A DNA stretch of 48,575 bases. It comes from Deltaproteobacteria bacterium (GTDB lineage: Bacteria > Lernaellota > Lernaellaia > JACKCT01). The DNA lies in assembly GCA_020845895.1 (NCBI GenBank), contig JADLEX010000040.1, forward strand, positions 1 to 48,575. Reading direction: 5' to 3'. Shown piece by piece: positions 8,928 to 46,033 of this stretch. The translations under genes and the position numbers were made by a program. The notes beneath the pieces are model-generated. The model saw only the letters and a program-made list of their open reading frames with translations. It made no database searches and was not told the DNA's origin. The first letter of the stretch is position 1; each line of letters starts with the position of its first letter.

Positions 8928-8932
8928 CGTCG

Positions 8933-13200: not shown

Positions 13201-13213
13201 GCCGTCTCCGCCA

Positions 13214-14332
13214 TCAATCGCCACGCCGAGCGGCCGCCGCGTCGAACTCCCGAAGCGCACGAAACACGCGCTCCAGTTCCTCGTCCGTACGGTCGGGTCC
13301 GCTGGGGAGTATAAGCCCGGTTTCCGCGAAACGCCGCGCGTTCGGCAACGGATTCATCACTTTCAGATGGGATATCCGGTCGAGCGGAGGGTCTAGCGGC
13401 TTCGCCTGAATCCCCCGCCGACGCAGGTGCCGGATCAATTCGTCACGGCGCTCGCACTCGGCTTCGATCCACATGGGCAACTCGCCGCGCTCCAGCTTGG
13501 GTCGGCGAAGGCAAACCGACGTCAGCCCTTTCATTTCGATCCGGTAACGACGATGGAGCGCCAACAGGGCTTCTTTCCGCAATTCGATCCGGTCGACCTG
13601 CGCGAGCGCCATGGCCGCCTGGACATCCGTGAGCCGGAAGTTGAACCCGAACAACGGAAAACGCCCGGTCGACACCTTCGTCGCGCCGTGATTGCGAATC
13701 CGCCGCATCGCTTCAGCCAACACGGGGTCGCTCGTCGCGCAGAAACCGCCCTCGCCCGTCACGATCAGCTTCGTCATGCTCATCGAAAAGCACCCGATTT
13801 CGCCGGTCGTCCCGAGATATTGCCCGGCGGCCTGCGAGCCCATCGCCTGTGCGGCGTCTTCGACCAATGAGATTCCGTGGGTTTTCGCGATCCCGGCGAG
13901 TTCCGTCATTTTCGCGGAGCGCCCGTTGGGATGCACCGCGATGATCGCGCGCGTTCGATCGGTGATGGCGCGGTTCACCGCGCGCGGGGCGATGGTCGAG
14001 CGACCGCCCGATTCGACATCCACGACGATCGGCGACGCCCCGGCAAGGAGCACCGCATTGGCCGTCGCCACGAAGGTGTATCCCGGCACGATCACCTCGT
14101 CGCCACGCCCGACGCCGAGCGCGAGCAGGGCCGTCGTCAGAGCCGCCGCGCCGCTGCCGACCGCCACGACGTGGGGGACGCCGAGCCATGTCGCGAGCGC
14201 CGATTCAAGCCTTGCGACGATAGGCCCCGTGGATACATGACGCGAAAGGACGGCATCCCGCGCTGCGTCCGCGACCTCGCGTCCCAGATCGATCCACCAC
14301 CAGGGAATTGTGCGCCGAATGCCGACCGTCAT
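13214..14332 (-). CDS. DegT/DnrJ/EryC1/StrS family PLP-dependent aminotransferase
   Basis: A 372-residue protein, typical family length. It shows the substrate and PLP motifs in order: GSGAAAL at about 59-65, VPGYTFVATANAV at about 82-94, VEDAAQAMG at about 157-165 (D159 contacts the PLP ring nitrogen), and SMTKLIVTGEGG with the probable Schiff-base lysine K188. The family aminates keto-sugars bound to nucleotides, or other cyclic ketones. The ATG at 14332 overlaps the upstream glycosyltransferase stop as ATGA. It implies that an amino group is installed on a sugar or cyclitol in this pathway. A dehydratase role, known for a few family members, is less likely because the lysine is kept. Confidence 0.88.
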   Translation of the reverse strand: MTVGIRRTIPWWWIDLGREVADAARDAVLSRHVSTGPIVARLESALATWLGVPHVVAVGSGAAALTTALLALGVGRGDEVIVPGYTFVATANAVLLAGASPIVVDVESGGRSTIAPRAVNRAITDRTRAIIAVHPNGRSAKMTELAGIAKTHGISLVEDAAQAMGSQAAGQYLGTTGEIGCFSMSMTKLIVTGEGGFCATSDPVLAEAMRRIRNHGATKVSTGRFPLFGFNFRLTDVQAAMALAQVDRIELRKEALLALHRRYRIEMKGLTSVCLRRPKLERGELPMWIEAECERRDELIRHLRRRGIQAKPLDPPLDRISHLKVMNPLPNARRFAETGLILPSGPDRTDEELERVFRALREFDAAAARRGD

Positions 14333-15084
14333 GTCGCCAGCCGCGAAGCACCCCACACGCCGTCTCCGCGCAGCCGTCGATGGAGCCGTTCACGCACGTA
14401 CAGCCGCGCGATGTCGCGAATCACGCCGACAAGATTCGCCCAGCGAAACGCCTTGGTGCGTTTTCGCGGATCGAAGCGATCCAGGGCGCCGACTTCGACG
14501 AATGGCGTACCGCGATCAAGCAGACGCACGAGCATCGCGGCCTGAAACGCGTAACTCGACGAACCGTCGACGGCCTCGCGCGCGAGGTGCGTCGGCATGA
14601 GGACCGAGTGGTTGAAGTACCGAAGGCGGTATCCGAAGAGTGCGCTCATGATGAACGTGAACATCCGGGAGATCACGCGGCGAAACGCGGAGCGCTCCCG
14701 CGTATTGACGGTAAAGGGAATGACAATTCCAGACCCTTCAGCCGCGCCGAAAATGATGTCGAGCGACGACTCGGTCATGTCGTTGCAGCCGTTCGCGCGC
14801 ATCACGTAGTTCATCGACGCCAACTGAAGTCCCGTCCGAAACGCGCCGCCGAGACCGCTCGGCGAAGCGTGGTGGACCGCGCGCACACCGGGAAGCCGAT
14901 GCGCCAGTTCGTCGATCACGACGCCGGTGCGGTCGGAACTCCCGTCGTTCACGACGATGATCTCGACATCGTCGAACCATCGCGACGCCGCGTCGCGGGC
15001 GGTCTCCACCGCCGCCCCGACGTTCGATTCCTCGTTGAACGCGGGTACGATGATCGAAATCGACGTTCTCGCCGTGTTCATCAT
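14329..15084 (-). CDS. Family 2 glycosyltransferase, polyprenyl-phosphate sugar synthase-like
   Basis: A 251-residue protein starting at the first of two ATG codons in an ATGATGA overlap with the transketolase gene. The N-terminus has the GT-A signature IIVPAFNEESNV and VVNDGSSDRTG. The segments SGLGGAFRTGL and FGYRLRYFNHSVLMPT resemble DPM1/ArnC-like enzymes that put a sugar on undecaprenyl phosphate. The DxD metal site expected after the middle beta strand is not clear: the aligned segment reads MRANGCND. There are no strong membrane segments apart from one hydrophobic stretch near residue 150. It would make the lipid-linked donor used by the GT-C proteins encoded at 326-3786. Confidence 0.8.
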   Translation of the reverse strand: MMNTARTSISIIVPAFNEESNVGAAVETARDAASRWFDDVEIIVVNDGSSDRTGVVIDELAHRLPGVRAVHHASPSGLGGAFRTGLQLASMNYVMRANGCNDMTESSLDIIFGAAEGSGIVIPFTVNTRERSAFRRVISRMFTFIMSALFGYRLRYFNHSVLMPTHLAREAVDGSSSYAFQAAMLVRLLDRGTPFVEVGALDRFDPRKRTKAFRWANLVGVIRDIARLYVRERLHRRLRGDGVWGASRLAT

Positions 15085-16022
15085 GCTTTCACCGGCCGTG
15101 CGTCGGTCGCGATCCGGGCGATTCGTTCCGCGACGGACTCGGCGTCGAGGCCGTGCCTCGCACGCAGACATGGACCCGACCCGATCCCAAGGTTCGCCTC
15201 ATCCGGCATCGAGAAACGAACGACGCGGCACGATATGCCCGACTCGGCAACGATCTGACTGACAATGGCGTGAAGCCCTCCATACGGGCCGTGTTCCTCG
15301 ATCGTTGCGATGATGGCGTGCGTCGACGCGATTGCGGCGACGGCATCCCGGTCGATCGGCTTCGGCGTCGGCGCGCTGAAACACGAGACCGAAATCCCTC
15401 GCTCGGAGAGTCGCTCACACGCACCCAAGGCCGTCTTCACCATGTGTCCGGTCCCGATCAACGCGATCTTCTCTCCCTCGCGAATGCGAATCAGTCCGCC
15501 GATTCGAAGCGCCTCGGGAGTCCGTTCGTGCACGCTCGGCTCGCCCGACTTCGCGAGTCGAAGATACGCCGGTCCGTCATGCGTGGCGATGGCGTGCATC
15601 AGGGACTCGACCTCGAACGGGTCGCCGGGGGCGAGCACGGTCATTCCCGGCAAAGCGGACATCGCCCCCACGTCGTGCAGCGAGTAGTGCGTCGGACCTT
15701 CCGCGCCATAGGTCACACCCGCGCCGACGCCGACGATCAGAACGGGCAAATGGTGCAGACAGATATCGATGCGGATCTGCTCCAGACACCTGGCGGTGAC
15801 GAACGGTACGATGCCGTAAAGCACGGGGCGAAAGCCCTCCGACGCCATGCCCGCTGCGAAGCCGATCGCGGCCTGCTCCGAAACGCCGACGTTTAGGAAT
15901 TGGCCGGGTCGCTCCGCACGGAATTCGTCGAACACGCGAAAGCCGGTATCCGCGGATAGCAGGACCCAGCGCGGATCGGCCGCGGCCAGTCGCTCAAATG
16001 CGCGGACGAACGCGGTCCTCAC
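15081..16022 (-). CDS. Transketolase-like protein, C-terminal subunit
   Basis: A 313-residue protein equal to the pyrimidine-binding and C-terminal domains of transketolase or DXS-like enzymes. It shows the conserved SEQAAIGFAAGMA segment with the catalytic glutamate region, TYGAEGPTHYSLHD and PGDPFEVE. With the adjacent N-terminal subunit it forms a split, thiamine-diphosphate-dependent enzyme. The start is a GTG overlapping the previous stop (GTGA). Split transketolases placed inside sugar or antibiotic clusters usually move two-carbon units to make unusual sugars rather than serving central metabolism. That role here is inference from context. Confidence 0.87.
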   Translation of the reverse strand: MRTAFVRAFERLAAADPRWVLLSADTGFRVFDEFRAERPGQFLNVGVSEQAAIGFAAGMASEGFRPVLYGIVPFVTARCLEQIRIDICLHHLPVLIVGVGAGVTYGAEGPTHYSLHDVGAMSALPGMTVLAPGDPFEVESLMHAIATHDGPAYLRLAKSGEPSVHERTPEALRIGGLIRIREGEKIALIGTGHMVKTALGACERLSERGISVSCFSAPTPKPIDRDAVAAIASTHAIIATIEEHGPYGGLHAIVSQIVAESGISCRVVRFSMPDEANLGIGSGPCLRARHGLDAESVAERIARIATDARPVKA

Positions 16023-16807
16023 GACGATTTATCCTTATCCATTCGGAGCGCGTCCAACATGGCGGGGGTGATCGAAAAGTAATGTGATTCCAGCCGATCC
16101 TCGAGCTCGGGCACTCCACGACCTTTGATCGTGCGCGCGATAACCACCCTCGGCGAATCGTCGGCGTTCGCCTCGAACGCGGACGTGAGCGCGGCGTGGT
16201 CGTGGCCATCGCACTGTGTCACGGTCCATGCCGCCGCCTCGAACGCGCGATGGATGAAATCGCCCGGCAGCACGTTCGCGACGCGGTCGTACCCCTGCCA
16301 ACCGTTGGCGTCCACGACGGCGACCAGATTCGCCATGCGCATCCGTCCCGCCAGCGCCGCGGCCTCCCAGACCGTGCCTTCCCCACACTCCCCGTCACCG
16401 AGCACGACGAAGACGCGGCCCGATTCCCCCCGCCTCGTCATCGCCCACGCGATCCCCGCTCCCACGGCGAGACCGTGACCCAGCGATCCCGTCGTCCACT
16501 CGATGCCGGGCGCGGTGCCGACCGTCGGATGGCCGGGCAAGCCCGCGTCTTTCATGTAGTTTTCGAGCTGCCGGGCCGGAATCGTCCCGCGAAGAGCGAG
16601 CGCGGCATAAAGCGCCGACACGCCATGCCCTTTGCTCAGGATCAACCGATCGCCTCCGACGTTTCCGACACCGGTCATGACGGCGAATTGCAGAACGGCG
16701 ACGATATCCGCGATCGAGAGCGCCGATCCGACGTTGGGACCGATGCGGTGCATCTCGAGGATGCGATCCCGAATGAACTTCGCCGCATCGCGAGAATTCG
16801 ACGTCAC
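16019..16807 (-). CDS. Transketolase-like protein, N-terminal (TPP-binding) subunit
   Basis: A 262-residue protein with the thiamine diphosphate motif: GDG at 137-139 and the matching asparagine N168 in DANGWQ, about 30 residues later. LSKGHGV at 57-63 and TGSLGHGL at about 106-113 are also typical of transketolase N-terminal halves. It starts at a GTG overlapping the upstream stop (GTGA) and overlaps the C-terminal subunit gene in the same way, so the two chains should be made in equal amounts. It lacks the pyrimidine-binding domain, which the next gene supplies. Confidence 0.88.
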   Translation of the reverse strand: MTSNSRDAAKFIRDRILEMHRIGPNVGSALSIADIVAVLQFAVMTGVGNVGGDRLILSKGHGVSALYAALALRGTIPARQLENYMKDAGLPGHPTVGTAPGIEWTTGSLGHGLAVGAGIAWAMTRRGESGRVFVVLGDGECGEGTVWEAAALAGRMRMANLVAVVDANGWQGYDRVANVLPGDFIHRAFEAAAWTVTQCDGHDHAALTSAFEANADDSPRVVIARTIKGRGVPELEDRLESHYFSITPAMLDALRMDKDKSS

Positions 16808-18438
16808 AGGGGCTCTCCCGCCTCAACCGCGCCAGGTCGGTCCGGTTGCGCGGACTGACGCAGCACCTCGTCGACATCGACCGCGAACTGACCGGCGGAC
16901 GATGCGATCAGAATCTCGCCGTCGTTCAACGATCGGGTGACGGCCCGGACTCTCGTTCCGATTCGGATCCGGGCCAGGAATTCCAGTCGTTCCGACCGAT
17001 GGAACGCCAGGGTTCCGTCCAGAAAACTCGGAACGATGAGAAGATCACGCGCGGAATCGTGATAAGCGGAGCGCGGGTAGCGATCGGTTTCGACGGAGTC
17101 GATCGTCTCCAGCGAATCATACGACACCTTTTCCACGCGATGCCGCGAATAATAGCTGATATAGAAATAGGACCGATCCGTCTGCGTGATATAGGAAACC
17201 ACGTCGTCGATGTATCGTTCCCGCAGGACCCGACCATCCAGATCCGTCTTCGTCAACTTTCCTCGAAGCGGGCGCAGACTCGCCTTGTTCGAGCCCAAGA
17301 ATACGATGGAATTCCCATCCGGAGACCAGATGCAGTCGGTGTTTCGATTTCCGACTTCGATCGCCTTGGCGCTGCGTTGTTCCAGATCGAAATAGACGAC
17401 GCCGGACGCCTCGTCGAACTGAGCCAGGAATTTCGTCGGATTCCCGGCCGGAAAACCACGAATGTTCCCGCCGGCGAACGTGGGATTCATTCGCCGAAAC
17501 TCCGGCTCGAACGATGCCACGAACTCCGGTTGCGCATCCGCCGTTCGCATCAACCAAAGCTTGGGACCCGAAAAGAACCAGTAAGCGCGCCGGCCCGCAT
17601 CCCAAACGGCTTCGTCCGACGGTCGATACGTTTCCGACCGACAGGCGTCCGATCGGCCGGCCCGATAAGCACAAAAGTCCGCAATGTGGTGATAAAAGCG
17701 CCAACCATTGCCCGCGCCGTCGTCGATGAAAAAATTGATATCCTGTCGGTCGAAGGAAGCGAGTTGCCGTACGCCCGGCTGCGAAGCGATCTCGGCGGCC
17801 GCCTCGGGGTGGGACGCCGAATACGAATGAATGCTCAACGTCCCGATCACGCCCAGACCCGCGATGATCGAGAGGTGCGCCCACCTCGGCGCCGGTGACG
17901 AGCGCGCGTTTTCGAGAATCCGGTGAAGTCCCAATGCGGTGGCCAGCAGCAGGGCCACGACGGACATCAGCGACCAAGAGAACTCGTGAAAACATCCATG
18001 CGACACGAGGAATGCGGCGAGACAGATGGCGCCGTCGATCATCCACCCGGCGCCACTGCGAATCAGCCGTCCCGAAATCAGGAGCGAAACGGCGACGACG
18101 GGAAACACGATTTCGACCCCGGGAAAGAATCGCCGCAGCCACGAGGCGATCGCGATGACGGGCCCCCACGCCAGAACGATCATCACGACGAACGGAAGTA
18201 CGACTTTCCAACCGTCGCGCGTGGAGAAGCAACTCGCGGCGAAGAACACGCAGGCGACGGCCAGAGCGCCGCAAAGCACCCGGGCGTAAGGATACTTGAT
18301 CGCGACGAGTCCGAGGTAGCACGGCAAAACCGGGACGACCCAGAGCAGCAACGTGAGCGAGAGGCGGGTCAGCCTTCGCTTTCCGTCCCCCGTCAACACG
18401 CGTCCCCCGAGGCGAATCGGAACCGGTCGCCTCGACAA
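16804..18438 (-). CDS. Membrane protein with C-terminal beta-propeller-like domain
   Basis: About 544 residues. Residues 25-210 contain six or more hydrophobic segments; the remaining 330 residues are soluble and look like a TolB/WD40-type beta-propeller (blade motif DCIWSPDGNSIVFLG and several weaker repeats). The start is uncertain: a TTG at 18438 follows the upstream stop by 3 bases, while a GTG at 18399 has GGGGGA 3 bases before it and would remove 13 residues. The gene lies between two radical SAM genes and the transketolase genes and overlaps the latter by GTGA. I know no named family for this fusion. It may be a membrane scaffold or sensor for the pathway product. Confidence 0.65.
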   Translation of the reverse strand: MSRRPVPIRLGGRVLTGDGKRRLTRLSLTLLLWVVPVLPCYLGLVAIKYPYARVLCGALAVACVFFAASCFSTRDGWKVVLPFVVMIVLAWGPVIAIASWLRRFFPGVEIVFPVVAVSLLISGRLIRSGAGWMIDGAICLAAFLVSHGCFHEFSWSLMSVVALLLATALGLHRILENARSSPAPRWAHLSIIAGLGVIGTLSIHSYSASHPEAAAEIASQPGVRQLASFDRQDINFFIDDGAGNGWRFYHHIADFCAYRAGRSDACRSETYRPSDEAVWDAGRRAYWFFSGPKLWLMRTADAQPEFVASFEPEFRRMNPTFAGGNIRGFPAGNPTKFLAQFDEASGVVYFDLEQRSAKAIEVGNRNTDCIWSPDGNSIVFLGSNKASLRPLRGKLTKTDLDGRVLRERYIDDVVSYITQTDRSYFYISYYSRHRVEKVSYDSLETIDSVETDRYPRSAYHDSARDLLIVPSFLDGTLAFHRSERLEFLARIRIGTRVRAVTRSLNDGEILIASSAGQFAVDVDEVLRQSAQPDRPGAVEAGEPL

Positions 18439-18441
18439 ATC

Positions 18442-19560
18442 TCAGATGAAATCATCGTGCGCCAATGGATTCTGAAGTCGCCAGAGGTACCGGTTCGATG
18501 CGTGCATCCGGCAGACGTCGCGGCAGCGCGCGAGGTCCAGTCGATTCTCGACAAAATCCACAACGTTCTTTCGTCGATCGGACTCCCAGATCGCGGACAT
18601 CGACTGGCTGTTCAGGTCGCCGACGAAAAAGTCGTTGTCCCCCGCGAACACGTTGCACTCCCACACCCGTCCGTCCGCGCCGACGAAGTTCAGGAAGTGT
18701 GTTCCGTGGCACTGGGCGTAGGGTTTCTCGCGTCCGGTCTGACGAGCCGATTCGATGCGGGCGATGACGGAAAAGGATTCGGTCGCGAGCGGCGCGATCC
18801 GCGCCGCGAGTTCTTCGAACACTTCGAGGTCGGTCGCGATTCCTCGCATGGACTTCGGATGTTCGGAGTAAGGTTTGAGACTGAAATAATCCGCGCCCGA
18901 CTCGCGCGCGCGAAGGACGAAACGTTCAACGTCGTGCGGTCTCTGGTCGAGCAGGACGAGTTGGACTCCGATCGTCACGGCCAGTTCGAGCGACCGCTTT
19001 CGCGCGACGGCCGCCTCGAAGTTCGCCATGACCTTCGCGAAGTCCGACGGCCGCGTCCGGTGCATTCGGGCGTATTCGAGCGGATGTGAACCGTTGATCG
19101 AAAATCGGATCCACTTCAGGTCGTCGATCAATCCGATCCCCGCGTCGCGCAGGCGGCGGCCGTTCGTCGTCACCGACGCGCTCATGCGCTTCGACGCCCG
19201 CTCGATCAGTTCCGCCGCGTTCGGGTGCAGAACCGGCTCGCCGTGCCCGCTGAACATGATCGAACGGTTTCCCATCGATGCGAGTTCGTCGATCGTGCGG
19301 GATGCGAGGTCACGATCCATGAATCGGGCCGGTTTGTTGACGAGGTGTTCCACCCCGCAAAACCGACACGCGTGGTTGCAGGCCGTCGTCAGTTCGAATT
19401 CGGTGTAGATCGGCGCGGGCGTCCGACCCGTCCGGAGCCACTCGGCGACGCGCTCCGGGAACAGGCTCAGGCGCTGCGCGTCGAAAGCGGTGTCGAATGA
19501 CGGGCCCTGTTCCGGTCGAGCGTCCGCCGGGACCGGCGCGGTCGCGTCGCGCGACGACAT
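18442..19560 (-). CDS. Radical SAM/SPASM domain protein
   Basis: A 372-residue protein with C61, C65 and C68 (CNHACRFC), FSGHGEP in place of the usual TGGEP, and SVTTNG. The C-terminal part has QCHGTH, then GRVWECNVFAG, then a GDL...IW segment, then ARCRDVC, a SPASM-type layout. It starts at an ATG sharing one base with the upstream stop (TGATG). The first 45 residues are low in order and rich in Pro and Ala. The HGEP variant places a histidine where many family members have a glycine. The substrate is not known. Confidence 0.82.
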   Translation of the reverse strand: MSSRDATAPVPADARPEQGPSFDTAFDAQRLSLFPERVAEWLRTGRTPAPIYTEFELTTACNHACRFCGVEHLVNKPARFMDRDLASRTIDELASMGNRSIMFSGHGEPVLHPNAAELIERASKRMSASVTTNGRRLRDAGIGLIDDLKWIRFSINGSHPLEYARMHRTRPSDFAKVMANFEAAVARKRSLELAVTIGVQLVLLDQRPHDVERFVLRARESGADYFSLKPYSEHPKSMRGIATDLEVFEELAARIAPLATESFSVIARIESARQTGREKPYAQCHGTHFLNFVGADGRVWECNVFAGDNDFFVGDLNSQSMSAIWESDRRKNVVDFVENRLDLARCRDVCRMHASNRYLWRLQNPLAHDDFI

Positions 19561-20462
19561 CACTCGACCTCCCGGATTTCGACGGACGTATGGCCGAACT
19601 CCTGAAAGCGGTTCGTCTTGATCTTGACATCGCACGGGTGGCACGAACCGAAGGCGTCGCAAGGCGCGAACGCATCGGACAGTCGAAGATCCGCATCGAG
19701 AATGTGACCGCGCGGATTGCGCCGGGCGTACAGATCCGCGTGACAACGATACACGTCGCCGTTCGGATCAATCAACAGCTCGGACGGCCGGCAGCGCACG
19801 GAACGCCGTTCGCCGGTCATGGCGTCCGCATATCGATAGGTTCCGAGTGTCCGCCCGCGATGCGACCCGAGAAATTCCTTCGTGCGGATATCGATGGCCA
19901 TCTTCGCGCATGTCTCGTAAGCGCGCCGATTCGCGTCGGCATGCGCCGGATGGTCGATCACATAGACGCCGACCGGAAATCCGGCATCGATCAGCGTTCG
20001 CACCGACGAGAGCAAGTCGTCCAACCGGCTCTGCGTGGGGTGGTAAGACACCCGGATGGAGGCGTACGGGGCCCTGCGCCGGAGGCGATCGGCGGGCACG
20101 GTCTTCACGAATCGGCGCACATCGAAGGACAGATTCGTCAGGATGTCGATGTGCAGGTCGTCACGAAGACCGAGAATGATTTCCAGAAAATCGGGATGCA
20201 AGCTCGGCTCGCCGCCTTGAAGCGTGACCGGAAGATCGTCCGGCAGCCGCAGTCGGTTGAGTCCCTCGACCCACTGCGAGCCCGTCAGTCCGAATGTGCC
20301 TTTCCACAGCCTGACGCGGGATTTGCCGACCGTGTTGATGCAGTAGAAGCAGCTCTTGTTGCAATCGAGCGTCAGAAACACGCCGACGTAGTTGAACCGC
20401 GCGGGCAATACCTCGGGGGTCAATTCGCCAGGCGTATCGCGATGGGCGAGAGGCGACGCCAT
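19560..20462 (-). CDS. Radical SAM protein with SPASM-like C-terminus
   Basis: A 300-residue protein with C34, C38 and C41 (CNKSCFYC), then LQGGEPSLHP and a C-terminal cysteine group: VRCRPSE, GDVYRCHAD, APCDAFGSCHPC. The final cluster CxxxxxCxxC resembles the SPASM or twitch region. The ATG at 20462 is in a TGATG overlap with the cupin gene. The in-frame sequence upstream of it lies inside the cupin gene and is not part of this protein. It is the shortest of the nine radical SAM enzymes in the two operons. Reaction unknown. Confidence 0.82.
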   Translation of the reverse strand: MASPLAHRDTPGELTPEVLPARFNYVGVFLTLDCNKSCFYCINTVGKSRVRLWKGTFGLTGSQWVEGLNRLRLPDDLPVTLQGGEPSLHPDFLEIILGLRDDLHIDILTNLSFDVRRFVKTVPADRLRRRAPYASIRVSYHPTQSRLDDLLSSVRTLIDAGFPVGVYVIDHPAHADANRRAYETCAKMAIDIRTKEFLGSHRGRTLGTYRYADAMTGERRSVRCRPSELLIDPNGDVYRCHADLYARRNPRGHILDADLRLSDAFAPCDAFGSCHPCDVKIKTNRFQEFGHTSVEIREVE

Positions 20463-21271
20463 CAATCTCCCGACTCCGCGCCCGCGACGGACGCGCCGAG
20501 TCCAAATGCGTGCCGGGATGATTCCGACTCCCCGATGCCCAATTGGTTCAGCAGGCGCCGCGTGTAGGCGATCCCCCTTTCGCGGTCGGCCCGATCGGGC
20601 GCCCATTTTGCGTACTGGGTCGACATCCCTTCGACGAAGGGACCGTTGGCGATCTCATGCGTGATGAAATCATCCGACAACGGAATGATCGCGTGGTGAC
20701 GGGCGGACTCGAACCGGATGGCGTGCGTCGAGCCCGCATCCAACCGAATCGACCACGCGACGGCGCCCCGATCGTCGAATCCGATCGCGATGCCGCGTCC
20801 GGACACGGCGCGAACGCTCTCGACGCGATCCGAATGCCGATGCGGCGGATGATAAACATCGCGCGAAAAGACGATCACCATCTCCTGCAGGGGATCGCTC
20901 ACGTGATCGTGAAGGCACCATCGCACATCCAGACCGACGTGATCCCGCGCGATCTCCCGGAGCCGATCGATGACCGCGGAATCGATCCGGGCGGGATAGT
21001 TCGTGCATCGGAGCACGAGCGATCGCTCGTCGCGGCGTTCGATCCTGAAGTCGTTCGTTTCGGCTCCGCGCGCGCCGGAACCCGGCGTCGAGCCCGCGGC
21101 GGCAAGCGCATCGATGGCGGATGCGTGCCCGCGAAAGTCATCGGAATGATCGGTTGCCAAGACCAAAGCGGACCCCAGCGAGCGGCCTGTGCCCGTCGCA
21201 CCCGGATGCGCGGAGTCGAATCCGTCGATAGGAAATTCATTAACAGATTGGGGGTGGTCCTTCAACGCCAT
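20462..21271 (-). CDS. WbuC-like cupin fold protein, first gene of the minus-strand operon
   Basis: A 269-residue protein. From about residue 110 it matches the WbuC cupin family: DPLQEMVIVFSRD, then HPPHRHSDRVESV with the usual histidine metal ligands, then IRFESARHHAIIPLSDD, GPFVEG and YAKWAPD. WbuC proteins are found in O-antigen clusters and their chemistry is not established. The N-terminal 90 residues are an additional region without a clear match. A strong AAGGAGG lies 3 bases before the ATG, a short spacing. The gene opens the eleven-gene operon and links it to surface polysaccharide systems. Confidence 0.75.
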   Translation of the reverse strand: MALKDHPQSVNEFPIDGFDSAHPGATGTGRSLGSALVLATDHSDDFRGHASAIDALAAAGSTPGSGARGAETNDFRIERRDERSLVLRCTNYPARIDSAVIDRLREIARDHVGLDVRWCLHDHVSDPLQEMVIVFSRDVYHPPHRHSDRVESVRAVSGRGIAIGFDDRGAVAWSIRLDAGSTHAIRFESARHHAIIPLSDDFITHEIANGPFVEGMSTQYAKWAPDRADRERGIAYTRRLLNQLGIGESESSRHAFGLGASVAGAESGD

Positions 21272-37131: not shown

Positions 37132-38427
37132 TCAAGGCCGGAGAAGGCCCGAATACGAAACCGCCTCCAACGTCACGGGGTTCTTCAGCATTTTGTCGGT
37201 AATCACCCAGATCGCCGTGCGATCGCCGTGTTCCGTGGCGTTGGTCTTCTCGATCTTCGCGGGCATCGTCGCTTTGACCGTCAGGATACGCCGCGAGCGC
37301 TCGCCTTCGGCCGATCGATCGGCGTACACCGACGCCGGCAGGTTCATCCGAAACACGTCGATCGCGCCGTCGCGGCCCATGAAGACGAGGTTGTTCGGCA
37401 TCTTCTTGAAGTTCACGGGTTTTTTCGTGGCGAATTCGAAGCGCACTCGGCCTTCCGGCGTGCGGACCGACTCCATCGTCATGTCGGCCGCGGCGTTCGG
37501 GAAACACGCCAGCAGGATCGGCAAGTAGGTTTGGAGGGCTTCGCCGGATTCCAGCGTCGAGTCGATGCGCACACGGACATCCGCCTCGTGCCGGGAAACC
37601 TGCGTGAACTCAACGCTGAGCTGCGCGAGCGTCGGCAGGACGCGCAGCACCTCCGCGACTTCCCCGGGATCGGGAGCGGGGCCCAACGTCACGTCCTTCG
37701 GCGCGAGACTTTCGGGGCTCTCGCCGCATTCGACGCGGCTCTTCACACGCGCCGTCAAGCCGTTGTGGATGACATCGAGCAGCGTCGTTTCGTAAATGGC
37801 GAAACCATCGACGTCCGTGAGGCTCGCGTTGTGCGTGGTGGTGATGCCCGGCACCGTCAGACGCAGCCGAAAACGACCGGAGAGCAGGCGCTCGATGAGC
37901 AGCCTTCGCGTGTCCTCACCGAGTTCTCCCAGGGCGGAGTCATCGAGACGCACCACTTTTTCGGGATCGCGCTTCGCGCCGACGAACTCGGTGAAGAATT
38001 CGCCGCACAGTCCGGTCGGAGCCTTCATGTTGAGGGTGGACGACGAAACGACATACGGGAGCGCCTGCACCGCTTCCGACGCCCAGAAGCGGTTGAGGGC
38101 GTCGAGCCGGTCGAAGACCAGTCGATAACGCAGCACCATCTTGCCCGCTTCCTCGTAAACGCTTTCGTCGAGGGGATCGAGGCCGTCGATGCCGGTGGCG
38201 GCCGCACGCAATTGCGCCAGCGCCGACGCGATCTCGTCTTCGAGCCCGCTACCGGCGAATTCCGTCGCGATGCGCGCGTCGCGTTTGTCGATGCGCACCC
38301 ACGAGGTCACGATCCCGGACCCGTCCGAGAGCAAACGGATCTCCGTTTCGAGATCGAAGCAACCGACGGCTGCGACGGCGAGCGCCGCCACGCACACAAT
38401 CCGCGCGATTCGAAATGCTGTGGTCAT
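37132..38427 (-). CDS. Large predicted lipoprotein of unknown function
   Basis: A 431-residue protein with the signal ALAVAAVGC (lipobox AVGC near residue 20-23) and no other membrane segment. The mature part starts FDLETEIRLLSDGSGIVTSWVRID, a beta-strand pattern often seen in periplasmic proteins of unknown function that open with a 'cxdlexxixlxxDGSG' strand. Many Asp and Arg residues and alternate strands suggest two beta-rich domains. No family recognised with confidence. The ATG at 38427 is the first Met before the signal. It is transcribed away from the sigma-54 promoter region. Confidence 0.7.
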   Translation of the reverse strand: MTTAFRIARIVCVAALAVAAVGCFDLETEIRLLSDGSGIVTSWVRIDKRDARIATEFAGSGLEDEIASALAQLRAAATGIDGLDPLDESVYEEAGKMVLRYRLVFDRLDALNRFWASEAVQALPYVVSSSTLNMKAPTGLCGEFFTEFVGAKRDPEKVVRLDDSALGELGEDTRRLLIERLLSGRFRLRLTVPGITTTHNASLTDVDGFAIYETTLLDVIHNGLTARVKSRVECGESPESLAPKDVTLGPAPDPGEVAEVLRVLPTLAQLSVEFTQVSRHEADVRVRIDSTLESGEALQTYLPILLACFPNAAADMTMESVRTPEGRVRFEFATKKPVNFKKMPNNLVFMGRDGAIDVFRMNLPASVYADRSAEGERSRRILTVKATMPAKIEKTNATEHGDRTAIWVITDKMLKNPVTLEAVSYSGLLRP

Positions 38428-38561
38428 GCGGCGATGATAGGGGACGGTCGACGCACGATCAACGCGAACACGCCTTTACGGTTTTAAGTCGATGATTACG
38501 AATCGTAGGCGGCAACGCGGCGAGCGGATCGAAATCCCACGAAAAACCGGTTATTTTTAGT

Positions 38562-38576
38562 TGGCACGTCGTTTGC
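38562..38576 (+). promoter_or_regulatory. Sigma-54 promoter
   Basis: TGGCACG-N4-TTGC matches the sigma-54 consensus without mismatch. The GG at 38563-38564 and the GC at 38575-38576 have the required ten bases between them. A start point near 38588 is expected. Such promoters need an enhancer-binding ATPase; none is encoded in this window. A small palindrome at 38497-38507 lies about 55 bases upstream and may be part of the activator site, though it is closer than usual. Confidence 0.8.
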
Positions 38577-38587
38577 GAGCTTACGAC

Positions 38588-38771
38588 ATCGACGACGGCC
38601 GTGGTTCCCAAGGACCGCGACCCCCGAAGTCATGACACCCTGTTCCCGATCTCGGACCTCCGCGGGACAAGGGCGCCACGGTCGCCGTCAGGAATTCCGG
38701 AACGCCACACCCCGTTGCGCACGGAATTTCCGACAACGGGGACGCCTGTCAAACGGCGTCCCTTTCGTTTT
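38588..38771 (+). ncRNA. Probable sigma-54-dependent small RNA (about 184 nt)
   Basis: The region between a perfect sigma-54 promoter and an intrinsic terminator on the same strand has no good reading frame. Its 3' part folds into a long hairpin: CCCCGTTG (38710-38717) pairs with CAACGGGG (38734-38741), with an inner CGGAA/TTCCG pair (38722-38732). The 3' arm of this hairpin overlaps the 5' arm of the terminator stem by three bases, so the two hairpins may compete. A 62-codon frame from 38601 is present but ends outside the terminator and has no ribosome-binding site. Target and role unknown. Confidence 0.65.
38739..38771 (+). terminator. Intrinsic terminator of the putative small RNA
   Basis: GGGACGCC (38739-38746) pairs with GGCGTCCC (38755-38762) around an 8-base loop, followed by TTTCGTTTT (38763-38771). 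The T-rich tail is only on the plus-strand side, so it terminates plus-strand transcription from the sigma-54 promoter, not the facing acyl-CoA dehydrogenase gene. Confidence 0.75.
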
Positions 38772-38781
38772 CGCCCCACGA

Positions 38782-39984
38782 CTATCTGATCTTCATCCCA
38801 TATGCTCGCAGAATTCTCCGTGCCACCATGTCGATATGAACTTCGTCCGCGCCGTCGTAAATGCGCGCCGCGCGCTCGTGTGAAAACCAGAACGCGAGCG
38901 GGGTCTCATCCGTCATCCCGAGCCCGCCGAGGCCCTGTATCGCCCGGTCGAGCACACGCTGGAGCGTCCGCGCCACGGTGAACTTGATGAGGGAAATCTC
39001 CTCGCGCGCGCCGTACGTGCCCTCACGCTCGATCTTCCATGCCGCGTGCAGCACCATCAAGCGCGCCGAGTTGATCTCGGCTCGACTCTCGGCGATCCAC
39101 TGTTGCACCATCTGCCGCGTACCGAGAGGCTTGCCGGGCGCGAGTTCGCGCGTCGCGGCGTGGCGACACAAAATGTCGAGCGCGCGTTCGCAGATGCCGA
39201 TCCATCGCATGCAGTGGTGGATGCGCCCCGGGCCGAGCCGCTGCTGCGCGATCACGAATCCCATGCCTTCCGAGCCAAGAATGTTCGCCAGCGGAACACG
39301 CGCGCCCTGATAGCTGATCTCGGCGTGGCTCGCCCAGTCGCTGCCCCGCTCACCCATGATCGAGAGGTTGCCGACCAGTTCGAACCCGGGCGTGTCGGTC
39401 GGCACGAGGATCATGCTCGCGCGGCCATACGTCTCGGCGTCGGGGTTCGTCACCGCCATGCACACTGCAAACGCCGCCCCGTCGGCCGCCGTGGCGAACC
39501 ACTTGTGCCCGCGGATCACCCAGTCTTCGCCGTCCTTGATCGCGGTCGTTCCCATCCAGACCGGATTGGATCCCGCGAACTCGGGTTCCGTCATCGTGAA
39601 GCAGCTTCGGATCTCGCCGCGAATGAGCGGGAAGAGAAAACGCTCCTTCTGCTCGGGTGTACCGTGCTCGATCAGGATCTCCATGGTCCCGACGTCCGGC
39701 GCCTGGCAGTTGAAAATGTAGTGCCCCAGCGGGCTGCGGCCCAGCTCCTCGCTCATGTGCGCGAACTCGACGAGCGACAGTCCGCCGCCGCCCAGCTCCG
39801 CGGGGATGAATGCGGCCCACAGACCCGTTTGCTTCGCCTTTTCCCGCGCGGCGGCCAGCGAGGGCAGCGACTCGCGGAACCCGTGAAAGCGAACCGCGCC
39901 TTCGAGGGGATACACCTCGTTCGTCATGAACTCGCGCAGCATCTCTCGCATCGCGGCGACTTTTGGCGCTTCCGAAAAATCCAT
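38782..39984 (-). CDS. Acyl-CoA dehydrogenase
   Basis: A 400-residue FAD enzyme that introduces a double bond into acyl-CoA. The FAD-binding segment CFTMTEPEFAGSNP and the later WVIRGHKWF are typical, and the C-terminal domain has QGLGGLGMTDETPLAFWF and RAARIYDGADEVH, the sequence around the usual catalytic base. The length and the C-terminal layout are like ACAD10/11-type enzymes. GGGAG lies 7 bases before the ATG at 39984. Next to it, on the same strand, is the phosphotransferase that is fused to such dehydrogenases in animals. Confidence 0.92.
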   Translation of the reverse strand: MDFSEAPKVAAMREMLREFMTNEVYPLEGAVRFHGFRESLPSLAAAREKAKQTGLWAAFIPAELGGGGLSLVEFAHMSEELGRSPLGHYIFNCQAPDVGTMEILIEHGTPEQKERFLFPLIRGEIRSCFTMTEPEFAGSNPVWMGTTAIKDGEDWVIRGHKWFATAADGAAFAVCMAVTNPDAETYGRASMILVPTDTPGFELVGNLSIMGERGSDWASHAEISYQGARVPLANILGSEGMGFVIAQQRLGPGRIHHCMRWIGICERALDILCRHAATRELAPGKPLGTRQMVQQWIAESRAEINSARLMVLHAAWKIEREGTYGAREEISLIKFTVARTLQRVLDRAIQGLGGLGMTDETPLAFWFSHERAARIYDGADEVHIDMVARRILRAYGMKIR

Positions 39985-40694: not shown

Positions 40695-41797
40695 GCGACG
40701 CCGCTCTTTCGAATGGCCGTCCGGCAACGCCAGTGCAGGTAATGCGCGACGAGCCAGAACCGCCGAAATGCGGGATTGCGCGTCTGCCGATGATGGAAGC
40801 GGTAGTAGATCTGCTGAATGATGACGGCGAGCCGGAACGCCCCGCAGACTTCGTAAAACGCCCAATTGTCCGGACGGATGCCCATTCGCGTGCAATAGCG
40901 CTCAACGACTTCGCGGCGCGTCATCATGCCGGGCAGGTGCGTCGGTTGGCGACGCAACGCGCGACCGATCGGGTCGTCGTCGGCCTGCACCCAATAGGCC
41001 ATGCTGTTGCCGAGATCCATCAGGCCGTCACCGATCGTCGCCATCTCCCAGTCGAGCACGCCGATCACCCGCGTGGGGTCAGTCCGGTCGAGCACCACGT
41101 TGTCGAAACGAAAGTCGTTGTGGATCACGCGGTGCGGGCCGTCGTCTGGCCCGTTTTTCGCGAGCCATGACATCACCGACTCGAATTTCGGGACGTTCCA
41201 CGTCCGCGCGCGGCGATAGCGATCGCTCCAGCCTTCGACCTGACGGCGCACGTATCCCGGGCCGCGATCCATTGCGTCGAGTCCCACGTCCGCCGGATCG
41301 ATCGAATGCAGCTCGACCAGGGTGTCCACGACGCGTTCGCACAGCGCGCGCGTCCGCGCCGGGTCGAGATCGAATCCCAGGCTCGCGCGCGGAATGAGCC
41401 CGTCGATGCGGCGCATCACGTAGAACTCGCTGCCGATCACCGAGGCGTCGTCGCAGTGCGCGATCATCTCGGGCACATAGGGGAAAACGGGGCGCAGCGC
41501 GTTCTGCACGCGGTACTCGCGCGACATGTCGTGCGCCGACTTCGCCTTGGTGCCGGCGGGCGGGCGACGCAGTACGAGATCGTCGCGGTCGTATTCCAGC
41601 CGGTAGGTCCAGTTCGACGCTCCGCCGGAAAACTGCGTGACGCGGGGCATACCCGAAAGCGACGGCACGCGCGCCTTGAGCCACGCGTCGAGCGCGGCGA
41701 CGTCGAACTCCTCGCCCGCGCGCACCGTGCCGACGCGGTCCGAAGGCGGCGCACCCGCCGAACTCACCGACCCCGATTTGTCGGATTTCCCCGTCAC
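40691..41797 (-). CDS. Aminoglycoside phosphotransferase-fold kinase, ACAD10/11 N-terminal-like
   Basis: A 368-residue protein kinase-like fold enzyme. The catalytic loop VIHNDFRFDNVVLD and metal loop GVLDWEMATIGD are clear, and the N-lobe has FSGGASNWTYRLEY. This is the family that phosphorylates 4-hydroxyacyl-CoA in bacteria and is fused to the acyl-CoA dehydrogenase in mammalian ACAD10/11. With the dehydrogenase and a histidine phosphatase as neighbours, it fits a catabolic route for hydroxylated fatty acids. I chose a GTG at 41797 with GGGG 8 bases upstream. The frame stays open for another 740 codons upstream, opposite the S8 gene, which I treat as an artefact. Confidence 0.85.
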   Translation of the reverse strand: MTGKSDKSGSVSSAGAPPSDRVGTVRAGEEFDVAALDAWLKARVPSLSGMPRVTQFSGGASNWTYRLEYDRDDLVLRRPPAGTKAKSAHDMSREYRVQNALRPVFPYVPEMIAHCDDASVIGSEFYVMRRIDGLIPRASLGFDLDPARTRALCERVVDTLVELHSIDPADVGLDAMDRGPGYVRRQVEGWSDRYRRARTWNVPKFESVMSWLAKNGPDDGPHRVIHNDFRFDNVVLDRTDPTRVIGVLDWEMATIGDGLMDLGNSMAYWVQADDDPIGRALRRQPTHLPGMMTRREVVERYCTRMGIRPDNWAFYEVCGAFRLAVIIQQIYYRFHHRQTRNPAFRRFWLVAHYLHWRCRTAIRKSGVA

Positions 41798-41956
41798 GAA
41801 AGTCGCCCCTCTTCCGTCTGCGACGCTACGGATTTCACGCCCGCTTGTCCAATCCGAAGCCCGACATTGTTCGCCGCTCGAATTTTCGGTAGGGTCAGTT
41901 ATCTTAGCTTCGTCCTCGTGACCGCTTTTCGAAGTTCGTCGTTTGGGAGGCCCGAC
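41798..41956. promoter_or_regulatory. Divergent intergenic region before the S8 peptidase-like gene
   Basis: These 159 bases separate the phosphotransferase operon from the S8 gene, so promoters for both are expected. AT-richer sequence around 41890-41915 includes TATCTT, which could be a -10 box for the plus strand, but no matching -35 box is clear. GGGAGG at 41945-41950, 6 bases before the ATG at 41957, is a strong ribosome-binding site. Confidence 0.45.
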
Positions 41957-44900
41957 ATGCGCCCGCGCCGTATCGTCCTTCTCTCCGCCGCGTTCCTCGT
42001 CCTCGCCGCCGGCCCCGCGACCGCTCTCTCCATCACGGCGCAGAGCCATCGCATCGGCCGATACCAGAATTTCACTTACGAGCCGATGCGCATCGTCTTT
42101 GACGCAAGCCTCGATACCGGAACGGTGAACGCCTTGACGGTTTTCGTCGAATACGCCGAGGACGACTCGGTCACGGTACCGCTCTCCTTCTCTTTCGATA
42201 CCACGAATGTTTCGAACGACACGCTCGTGATCGATCCGGCGACCGCGAACGGTCGGTGGCCGTTCGCGCGGCGGCTGCGTCTTCAGATGACGAGCGCGGT
42301 GGAGAGCACGGGCGATTCGCCGTTCGACGGCAGCTATCCTTTTGACGATGTGTTCGCCGCGAACATCCCCAATGACATGGATATTCTGCAGGCATGGGAT
42401 CCCGGCGATCCCTTCAACTTCGTCGACGCATTCGCCAACGCGAACGTGCTTGTGGGTTACAACCCGGTGGACCCCGAGAACACCGATCCGGCCCGCACGG
42501 AGAAGATTCCCGGCATGTCTGCGACCGAGGCGTGGAAGGTGACGGGCGGGCAGCCGCAGATCATCATCGCCGTGGTGGACGACGGAATCGAGAAGTACCA
42601 CTACGACGAACTCGAGGAAAACTACTTCATCCACCGCGGAGAACTGCCCGAGCCGACCGTGTCGGGCACGCCGTGTTTCCCGGACGCCTATGACTGCAAC
42701 GGCGACGGCAAGTTCAACGTGCGTGACTACGACGACGACCCCGCGTTCGCCGGGCTCGGCCATGCGGTGACGATTCCGGATCTCTTCGCCACGTTCGAGG
42801 ACAGCGTGGACAACGACGGCAACGGTTTCGTGGACGACATCAGCGGGTGGGACTTTTTCCGCGACGCCAACGAAGCGCTGGGCGTGGTCGATTTCCCGGA
42901 GGGCGGCCACGGCGAGGACCGCGCGCGCGACGCGGTCGGCATCGGCGACAACGGCGAGGACGACAAACCCGGATTCTGCCCCTACTGCACGATGTTGCCC
43001 GTGCGCATCTCCGACTCGGTCATGACCGAGGCGAACATGCTGGCGGCGGGGGTCGTTTACGCGCATGAGATGGGTGCGCAGGTCGCCGTGTTCGCCAGCG
43101 AATCGCTCAATCAATCCGGCGAGATCAACCGACTCTTCACCGAGATTTCCGAGGCGGGCACGACCCTGATCGGCGTCGCCAGCGACGAGGACAGCTACCA
43201 CCACGCCTACCCCGGCGCGTTCGACGACATTCTCAACGTCAAGGCGATCCTGCCGATTCCGCCGATTGAATTTCTCGATTTCCTGCCGATGCAGATCTTC
43301 GGCTTCACCGAGTCGTACTGCACGATGTGGGGCGAGCACGTCCACGTCGCGGGCAGCTCGGGCGCGTGCTCGTCCGAAGCCGCGGGCAACGTGGCGGGGC
43401 TCGTCGGGCTCATCTACTCGAGAGCGCTCGAACTTGGACTGTCCGTTTCGGCCAATGAGGTGAAACAGATCGTGACGATGAGCGCCGACGACATCGCGCG
43501 CTTCTGCCTCACGTGGACCGGCGGCGGTTGCCAGCCGGGATGGGACGCGCACTTCGGATACGGGCGACCCAACGCGCGCGCCGCGCTCGACATGCTGGGC
43601 GATGCGGAGCTCGGCGTGCCGCAGCATATTCCGGCAGAGGTGAAATTCCGCGCCCCCGCGTGGTACACCGTGGCCGACCCCGAGGAGACACCGACGATCG
43701 ACGTGGACGCGTACATGTTCGCGCGCGACCGCGAATTCGACTGGCAGTTGCAGGTCGCCGTGGGCAAGGAGCCGCTGGACGGCGCGTTCGAAACCGTGGC
43801 CTCGGGTTCGGGGCAGGATGCGATTGACGGCCCGATCGCGTCGGTCGACATCTCCGCGCTGCTCGATCCCGCCACATACGAGAGCTCGCCGGAAACCTCG
43901 TTCGACTTCACGGTCACGCTGCGCCTGCGCGCGAGCTACAACCAACCCGGTATCGGCGTGGTTCGCGGCGAGGACCGGCGCACGCTGGCGATCCACCGCG
44001 ACCAGGACGACGCGCACGGGCTACTGCCCGGGTTCCCGATGGACCTCGACGCGTCGGGGCGTTCGTCGGTGACATTCTATGACCTCGACGGCGACACGGA
44101 CGGGCGACTGGAAATGATCGTCGCGGCGAGCGGATCGCAGAGCGTCATGGTGTTCAAGCAAAACCTCGCGACCGATGCGTGGGAGATGATGGACGGCTTT
44201 CCCATCGACATCATGGAGTACAATGGACTCGATTTCCCGAGCGACGTGACGCTCAGCACGCCCGCCGTGGCGGACCTGTTCGGCGACGGCGAGCCCGCGA
44301 TCGTGATCGCAACTTACGCGGGCGCGGTGCTGGCAATCCATCGCAACGGCAAGGCGCACCTCGACGAGGGCGGCGATCCCGCGCCGCTGCTGCCGGGCTT
44401 CCCGGTCTGGGCGAACGAGCCCGACAACGCGACGACCGATGATTTCGGTCACGGACGCGTCTTCAATACGTCTCCGGTGCTCGCCGATCTGGACAACGAT
44501 GGCATGCTCGAAATCGTCGCGGGCAGCTACGACGGTCGCGTGTACGCGTGGAAGCCCGTCGATGCCGACGAAGACGGCCGCGCCGATCCGATGCCCGGTT
44601 TCCCCGTGTTGCTCAAGTCCGATCCCGGCGCGGTGCGCCCGGCGGCGGAGTGCGTGCGCGAGGATTCGGTTTTCGATCCGCAGATCATCACCACGCCCGC
44701 CGTCGGCATCTTCGATCCGGACTCCGCGAACGAGGACATCGCCGAGTATCCGTCGATCCTCGTCGGCACATCGGAGGTCTGCGAAGACGGCCTGATCGGT
44801 CTGAAGGGAACACGCTTCTACGCGGTCTTTCATGATGGGTACGAAAACGCGTCGGGCTCGCCCTTCCTGCCCGGCTTCCCCGTACCGATTCTCGGTCCGG

Positions 44901-46033
44901 TCAGCGATCTGCTGCCGCTACCGCCGGTCACCATCGGCATCACCTCGAGCCCGGCCGTGGCGCGCCACGACGGAAAGACGTGGATCGGCGTCGGCTCGGC
45001 GATCTGGTTCCCGCAAATGCTCGAATGGGACAACGGCGACATCGAGGTGCATACGCTCTCGGCGTCGGGCTTCAACGCCCTCGCGCACGGCGCGTTCGGG
45101 CGCATGGACGGCGACGACGTGCCCGAGTACGTCCTACCGCTCTCCAGCGTCTTCGACATCATCGACGGGTGGATTTCGCTGTTGCGCCCCGTGCTCGCGG
45201 CGTGGTCGCTCTCCGACATCGGTGGTCAGGTCTTCGAGAGCGAACAGCGCGACAGCAACTGGTACGTGAACCCCGTCATCGCGGACATCTCCGGCGACGG
45301 GCGCGCCGAGGCGATTTCCGGCACCGGCGGCTTCACCGTGGACGCGGTGGATTTCGACGGCGCGCAGCCGCCCACATGGCCGAAGTTCACGAACCAGTGG
45401 TCGGCCTCGTCGCCGTCGATCGGCGACACGGATCTCGACGGAAAACTGGAGGTGTACCAGTACACGCTCGAAGGGTGGCTGTGGGGTTGGAAGTCGGCCG
45501 GAGACGCGTGCGCCGAAACGGGCATCGCGTCGGATTGGTGGTCATTCCATCACGACGAACGCAACACCGGTTTCTGGAATGTCGACACGCTGCCGCCAAG
45601 CGTCGCCACCAACATCGAGGTCGAGGAAACCGATAGCGGATATCGTCTCTCGTTCACCGCACCCGGCGACGACTGGATGTGCGGCACAGCCGCCGAGTAC
45701 GACATACGTGTGGCGACGAGCCAGGAGGACCTTGAGGGCGTCGAGGCGTTCACGCAGGCGACTGCCGTGCCGGGAATCCCATCACCCGCTCCGGGCGGAA
45801 CGACGGTCCAGATCGAATTCGATTCGGACGAGCCCGAGTTTTGGTTCGCGATTCGCAGCGTCGATGAACTTGGTCATCATTCGCTGATCAGCGTTCCTCA
45901 AACCGTGAACACGAACCCGACCGATGACGACACGGGCGACGACGACTCCACCGGCGACGATGACGCGGGCGACGACGATACCGCGCCCAACGGCGGCGAT
46001 GACGATGACGACGATGATGGCTGCGGTTGCTGA
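41957..46033 (+). CDS. Large secreted subtilisin-like (S8) protein with FG-GAP repeats, FN3 domain and Asp-rich tail
   Basis: A 1358-residue protein with a signal peptide (about 1-23, cleavage after ATA). The S8 domain spans about 190-600, with triad residues D208 (VVDDG), H318 (GGHGED, where HGT is usual) and S473 (CSSEAAGNVAG). The segment that normally reads AAGN, holding the oxyanion asparagine, reads VASD (407-410). Residues 620-1130 contain at least five calcium-type FG-GAP/VCBS-like repeats (for example DLDNDGMLEIVAGSYDGRVYAWK). A fibronectin-III-like domain follows, then an Asp-rich tail ending GCGC. Secreted; the tail may bind calcium or attach it to the surface. Protease activity is uncertain. 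Confidence 0.85.
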   Translation: MRPRRIVLLSAAFLVLAAGPATALSITAQSHRIGRYQNFTYEPMRIVFDASLDTGTVNALTVFVEYAEDDSVTVPLSFSFDTTNVSNDTLVIDPATANGRWPFARRLRLQMTSAVESTGDSPFDGSYPFDDVFAANIPNDMDILQAWDPGDPFNFVDAFANANVLVGYNPVDPENTDPARTEKIPGMSATEAWKVTGGQPQIIIAVVDDGIEKYHYDELEENYFIHRGELPEPTVSGTPCFPDAYDCNGDGKFNVRDYDDDPAFAGLGHAVTIPDLFATFEDSVDNDGNGFVDDISGWDFFRDANEALGVVDFPEGGHGEDRARDAVGIGDNGEDDKPGFCPYCTMLPVRISDSVMTEANMLAAGVVYAHEMGAQVAVFASESLNQSGEINRLFTEISEAGTTLIGVASDEDSYHHAYPGAFDDILNVKAILPIPPIEFLDFLPMQIFGFTESYCTMWGEHVHVAGSSGACSSEAAGNVAGLVGLIYSRALELGLSVSANEVKQIVTMSADDIARFCLTWTGGGCQPGWDAHFGYGRPNARAALDMLGDAELGVPQHIPAEVKFRAPAWYTVADPEETPTIDVDAYMFARDREFDWQLQVAVGKEPLDGAFETVASGSGQDAIDGPIASVDISALLDPATYESSPETSFDFTVTLRLRASYNQPGIGVVRGEDRRTLAIHRDQDDAHGLLPGFPMDLDASGRSSVTFYDLDGDTDGRLEMIVAASGSQSVMVFKQNLATDAWEMMDGFPIDIMEYNGLDFPSDVTLSTPAVADLFGDGEPAIVIATYAGAVLAIHRNGKAHLDEGGDPAPLLPGFPVWANEPDNATTDDFGHGRVFNTSPVLADLDNDGMLEIVAGSYDGRVYAWKPVDADEDGRADPMPGFPVLLKSDPGAVRPAAECVREDSVFDPQIITTPAVGIFDPDSANEDIAEYPSILVGTSEVCEDGLIGLKGTRFYAVFHDGYENASGSPFLPGFPVPILGPVSDLLPLPPVTIGITSSPAVARHDGKTWIGVGSAIWFPQMLEWDNGDIEVHTLSASGFNALAHGAFGRMDGDDVPEYVLPLSSVFDIIDGWISLLRPVLAAWSLSDIGGQVFESEQRDSNWYVNPVIADISGDGRAEAISGTGGFTVDAVDFDGAQPPTWPKFTNQWSASSPSIGDTDLDGKLEVYQYTLEGWLWGWKSAGDACAETGIASDWWSFHHDERNTGFWNVDTLPPSVATNIEVEETDSGYRLSFTAPGDDWMCGTAAEYDIRVATSQEDLEGVEAFTQATAVPGIPSPAPGGTTVQIEFDSDEPEFWFAIRSVDELGHHSLISVPQTVNTNPTDDDTGDDDSTGDDDAGDDDTAPNGGDDDDDDDGCGC

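Follow-up and report, generated by a model that had tools for sequence, protein, structure and literature searches.

The locus and its flanking genes

The window, by which we mean the whole analysed stretch of 48,575 nucleotides, is contig C40 of a 4.98 Mb genome in 171 contigs. Within it, an intergenic gap separates two minus-strand genes, one for a putative lipoprotein and one for an acyl-CoA dehydrogenase (Table 1). For the lipoprotein, LppM is a sub-threshold hint only. The gap holds an exact sigma-54 box, a short palindrome upstream of it, and a predicted small RNA composed of a rod, a hairpin, and a terminator-like hairpin.

Table 1. Coordinates of the features discussed (positions in the window unless a genome and contig are given).
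Feature	Position	Strand	Basis or remark
Divergent neighbour: 431-aa putative lipoprotein	37132..38427	-	Kept in five of the six other class genomes
Intergenic gap, 354 nt	38428..38781	.	Flanked by two minus-strand genes; list of open reading frames and Pfam
Palindrome TACGAATCGTA	38497..38507	+	Putative binding site for an activator (enhancer-binding protein); centre ~86 nt before the predicted start
Sigma-54 box TGGCACG-TCGT-TTGC (-24/-12)	38562..38576	+	Exact match; genome-wide box statistics
Predicted small RNA, ~184 nt	38588..38771	+	Fold; predicted start and end
5' rod, 99 nt (arms 38591-38619 / 38661-38689, plus an internal hairpin)	38591..38689	+	Fold
Exposed C-rich loop ACCC	38620..38623	+	Unpaired probability above 0.6
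Exposed C-rich loop ACCTC	38656..38660	+	Unpaired probability above 0.6
3' hairpin GGAATTCCG/CGGAATTTCC	38691..38731	+	Fold
Exposed C-rich loop ACCCC	38709..38713	+	Unpaired probability above 0.6
Alternative 8-bp helix CCCCGTTG/CAACGGGG	38710-38717/38734-38741	+	Overlaps hairpin loop and terminator arm; disfavoured
Terminator-like hairpin (38738-38763) and interrupted T-run, tail TTTCGTTTTCG	38738..38771	+	Pattern
Convergent neighbour: acyl-CoA dehydrogenase	38782..39984	-	Pfam
RNA-B, window genome (L073, L088)	G000:C56:51796-51927		
RNA-B, second family genome (L055)	G001:C186:23988-24114		
RNA-B, third family genome (L030)	G002:C25:20057-20186		

We compared the window genome (G000) with the two others of its family (G001 and G002) and with four more that make up its class (G003-G006). 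Immediately before the lipoprotein gene, G001 and G002 have a gene for a membrane protein on the same strand. In G001 and G004, an APH-family gene comes after the acyl-CoA dehydrogenase gene, whereas in the window the APH-family gene lies on the other side of the dehydrogenase. Because neither flanking gene retains its neighbour in these relatives, the junction at the gap is, within what could be seen among the genomes compared, particular to the window's lineage.

An exact sigma-54 box

The box matches TGGCACG-N4-TTGC without mismatch, as the earlier note had reported; it is the only exact match in the window, and it has the GG and GC of a -24/-12 promoter at the right spacing. Looser matches in the window are uninformative, because allowing up to two mismatches gave 13 where 18 were expected. 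Across the whole window genome, there were eight exact boxes, as compared to one match for a reversed control pattern. This enrichment is clear in the window genome but not in every relative, because in G001 the reversed control exceeded the pattern (10 versus 7 exact matches). Summed over the seven class genomes, there were 36 exact boxes and 22 reversed-control matches. A relaxed pattern was far less enriched (12 versus 5 for the reversed control in the window genome, and 14 versus 13 in G001).

We inspected 33 of the 36 exact-box loci (the three left out are in G004 and G005). Each of the other seven exact boxes in the window genome lies 45-127 nt upstream of a 135-476-aa reading frame with a Shine-Dalgarno-like site, and the box in the gap is the sole one without such a frame downstream. 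As a control, 869 of 3000 random positions in the window (29%) satisfied the same rule, and 253 of 3000 satisfied a stricter one (start within 130 nt and a frame of at least 130 aa). Given these frames and this control, most of the exact boxes in the window genome are likely to be real promoters; judging by the reversed control, about one of the eight could be due to chance.

Among the proteins behind the other exact boxes of the window genome (all but L033), Pfam identified LpxC, FliL, and one resolvase, and three had no match. LpxC is the enzyme of the committed step in making lipid A; its gene comes right after an exact sigma-54 box in both the window genome (L028) and G004 (L037), and a related box was seen by eye before lpxC in G002 (L083). 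At the lpxC locus of the window genome, a palindrome, TGCAACACTGGTGTTGCA, precedes the box by about 145 nt. The fliL gene is behind an exact box at L043 (G000:C75).

All seven class genomes have rpoN (in the window genome, E = 1.2e-61 for the RpoN match). In G006, the match is split into two pieces; in G002, a single TGA interrupts the match to the DNA-binding domain (G002:C23:48152-48631), which may reflect an error in sequencing or assembly. The window proteins that were scanned included no sigma-54 activator. The palindrome upstream of the box in the gap has a single exact copy in the window; allowing one mismatch gave three matches (0.51 expected), one of which is its own reverse. Among 109 loci, this palindrome appears only in the five that cover 38497-38507. 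The promoter stretch had no match in viral contigs.

A predicted, strongly folded RNA downstream of the box

The RNA is predicted to start 12 nt past the -12 element and to end with the terminator. The first helix of the rod begins 3 nt past this start, and the rod, the 3' hairpin, and the terminator-like hairpin are packed end to end from there. The fold energy of the predicted RNA is -87.2 kcal/mol, with a z score of -5.03 (200 shuffles) or -4.53 (300 shuffles). None of 538 sliding windows of 185 nt along the plus strand had a z this low (lowest -4.27, from only 16 shuffles each). When we ranked 45 segments of 184 nt, each downstream of a TGGCAYR-N4-TTGC box in the three family genomes, the predicted RNA came first, with z = -4.61 (mean -0.46, standard deviation 1.38). 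The rod folds better on the plus strand than on the minus strand (z = -4.05 versus -1.70). Over the whole 184 nt, the difference is small, as the minus strand folds well too (z = -3.97 versus -4.53 on the plus strand).

The earlier note had described a sigma-54 promoter followed by a structured, terminated, non-coding RNA. The box statistics, the fold, and the geometry argue for this description, but the terminator taken alone does not: the hairpin with its T tail is there, but the T-run is interrupted, and 2,501 bases held two terminator-like sites versus a mean of 2.0 in shuffled sequence, so the bare pattern is not above chance. All seven class genomes encode hfq, and we take the broken T-run to be a poor Hfq tail.

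The box might instead drive a short mRNA, either a leader or a gene for a peptide of 40-80 aa, and the plus strand of the gap does have open frames of 62 aa (from 38601) and 83 aa (from 38632). However, neither frame has a Pfam match (E up to 0.1), and the 350 nt around the box hold no start of a frame that has both a Shine-Dalgarno-like site and a length of at least 70 aa (71% of random positions likewise lack one). Furthermore, the 83-aa frame crosses the terminator into the antisense of the next gene, and the start regions of the frames are buried in the rod. We consider such a short mRNA very improbable; the gap has no convincing gene, in keeping with the earlier statement that no protein gene lies between the box and the terminator.

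It had also been suggested that the RNA switches between two shapes. The 3' hairpin is present, and an alternative 8-bp helix does overlap the 5' arm of the terminator. But the 3' part of the RNA folds at -35.3 kcal/mol, as compared to -26.6 kcal/mol with the alternative (a penalty of about 9 kcal/mol), and the pair probability of the alternative helix is 0.0. Among 27 computed nascent 3' ends, the alternative helix was lowest in energy at only two (38746 and 38758). A stable two-shape switch at equilibrium is not supported.

Conservation and matches to known families

By BLAST, the locus has one copy in its own genome, and a repeated or mobile element was therefore rejected; a 241-base stretch was absent from 59 other genomes. 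We also searched the seven class genomes with a covariance model (R1) built from the single sequence: beyond the window RNA and its own complement, the best E was 0.115. Reading the sequence that flanks the orthologous neighbouring genes in the relatives revealed no homologue either. The conservation that the earlier note had proposed to look for was thus found neither in the 59 genomes by BLAST nor in the six other class members by the model. This is a weak refutation, because the nearest relatives belong to other genera. On the other hand, a homologue should have been findable if its sequence had been kept, since a conserved RNA (RNA-B, described below) was found.

These results bear on a rather unlikely alternative: that a rearrangement joined unrelated genes and left behind a sigma-54 promoter whose own gene was lost, with GC-rich sequence that folds fortuitously. 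The gap lies just where the relatives' gene order differs, on the lipoprotein side in G001 and G002 and on the dehydrogenase side in G001 and G004, and there is no homologue elsewhere in the 59 genomes or, by the covariance model, in the class. A chance fold is harder to reconcile with the lowest z among both the 45 post-box segments and the 538 sliding windows, or with a rod, a hairpin, and a terminator that run contiguously from the predicted start. The best reading is a lineage-specific sigma-54 small RNA: the gap probably yields a strongly folded RNA that the sigma-54 system switches on. We put the probability of a genuine sigma-54-dependent small RNA at the predicted coordinates, on the plus strand, at roughly two in three.

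Among 4,227 Rfam families, none matched the predicted RNA at the gathering score, and at E up to 10 there were three chance-level matches. In particular, 6S RNA (RF00013) had no match over the gathering score in the window; the genome's normal 6S RNA is at C73:9749-9930 (70.8 bits). This is relevant to another potential role, in which the rod or hairpin would bind a regulatory protein instead of pairing with mRNAs, much as 6S RNA binds RNA polymerase or CsrB-type RNAs bind CsrA. The long rod-like fold would suit such a role. Given that the genome has an ordinary 6S RNA elsewhere and that the Rfam matches are at chance level only, we think that sequestration of a protein is unlikely.

If the main reading is correct, then the RNA would represent a family new to Rfam, from a class with few genomes, and would show that sigma-54 in this class drives RNA regulators as well as protein genes.

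A second predicted RNA behind sigma-54-like boxes

RNA-B was first seen behind boxes in G001 and G002, as matching hairpins with 31 pairs, 5 of them changed on both sides. A model built from these two copies then identified the copy in the window genome (E = 2.3e-21), which lies 182 nt after the box TGGCATACCGTTTGC. With three sequences, there are 33 predicted pairs: 6 have changes on both sides and 8 are broken in one sequence, with 5 of the 8 breaks falling in the first hairpin of the window genome's copy. RNA-B has an invariant CCTGCATGAGCAACGG stretch and an ACCCACA loop that is invariant in all three sequences; CCTCC is present in two of the three. Of 193 genomes, only the three of the window's family yielded RNA-B. 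The copies in G001 and G002 had no Rfam match at the gathering score, and the copy in the window genome had none above chance.

Like the window RNA, RNA-B in the same genome has an upstream sigma-54-like box, exposed C-rich segments, and a strong 3' hairpin. It differs in sequence and fold, and it is found in all three family genomes rather than in one of them. Homology between the two RNAs was rejected because, when aligned, they match only over the promoter and short pieces. The occurrence of RNA-B across the family implies that structured RNAs behind sigma-54 boxes do arise in the window's lineage. In the ranking of post-box segments by fold, the RNA-B of G002 was second (z = -3.67) and that of G001 was fifth (z = -2.15), but the window genome's copy reached just -1.24, which shows that conservation of an RNA does not guarantee a good score here. 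Judged by fold alone, none of five orphan boxes (L039, L019, L027, L018, and L042) is followed by anything like the window RNA. RNA-B is conserved and covarying, and it is a better target for follow-up than the window RNA because comparison can already test it.

Known sigma-54 small RNAs and a proposed mode of action

Small RNAs that depend on sigma-54 are already a known kind, with GlmY among them, and the window RNA would itself be of this familiar kind. The report on Pxr from Myxococcus xanthus describes a 108-nt intergenic small RNA with a predicted sigma-54 promoter, beside the gene for a sigma-54 response regulator, nla19 (PMC5568312). By that description, Pxr resembles the window RNA in being intergenic, in its predicted promoter, in its fold with multiple stem-loops, and in coming from a delta-group bacterium; it differs in that the window RNA is longer (~184 nt) and has no sigma-54 activator beside it among the window proteins scanned. 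In Vibrio fischeri, the sigma-54 small RNA Qrr1 requires an enhancer-binding protein at upstream sites (PMC10162802). The LuxO site given there, TTGCAWWWTGCAA, was not seen by eye upstream of the box in the gap, and unlike Qrr1, the window RNA matches no small RNA family in Rfam.

The window RNA has four exposed runs of at least 4 nt: ACCC, ACCTC, ACCCC, and the terminator loop. Three of the four contain ACCY, a motif that was chosen post hoc, after we had inspected the runs. Among 1,000 shuffled sequences, 10 had three ACCY runs, and none had three that also made up at least three quarters of the exposed runs. A works-like parallel is LhrC from Listeria, in which three redundant CU-rich sites, in loops or single strands, bind the G-rich ribosome-binding region (PMC4132741). 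The LhrC motif is UCCC rather than ACC(C/U)C, and its promoter and host are unrelated (PMC4132741).

We propose that sigma-54 RNA polymerase would make the RNA only when an enhancer-binding protein, perhaps one that sits at the palindrome, is active. The non-coding RNA may then act in trans: the three ACC(C/U)C loops that it exposes would pair with GGAGG, the G-rich ribosome-binding site, in several mRNAs and so reduce their translation. Because of the exposed ACCY runs, the C-rich loops of RNA-B, and the LhrC precedent, masking of ribosome-binding sites is the likeliest mode of action, but with a motif picked post hoc we hold it only tentatively. A link to the envelope or to motility, from the presence of lpxC and fliL behind other sigma-54 boxes, is a guess, and for the nitrogen or envelope functions raised in the earlier note these two genes are only indirect evidence. 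Broader still, and improbable, is a riboregulatory layer in which at least two unrelated small RNAs made from sigma-54 boxes (the window RNA and RNA-B) would use their C-rich loops to tune the translation of envelope and motility genes by covering their Shine-Dalgarno sites, with sigma-54 itself driving lpxC and fliL.

Other features of the window

Positions 4014-10390 and 12127-21271 hold a cluster that is rich in radical SAM proteins, several of them with B12-binding or SPASM domains, along with genes for a sugar aminotransferase, a glycosyltransferase, and a split transketolase. A very long plus-strand frame at 41306-46033 ends in an Asp/Gly-rich tail (DDDDDDDGCGC); by eye, its product looks like a subtilase-like protein that is secreted and has a sorting-like tag at its C terminus.
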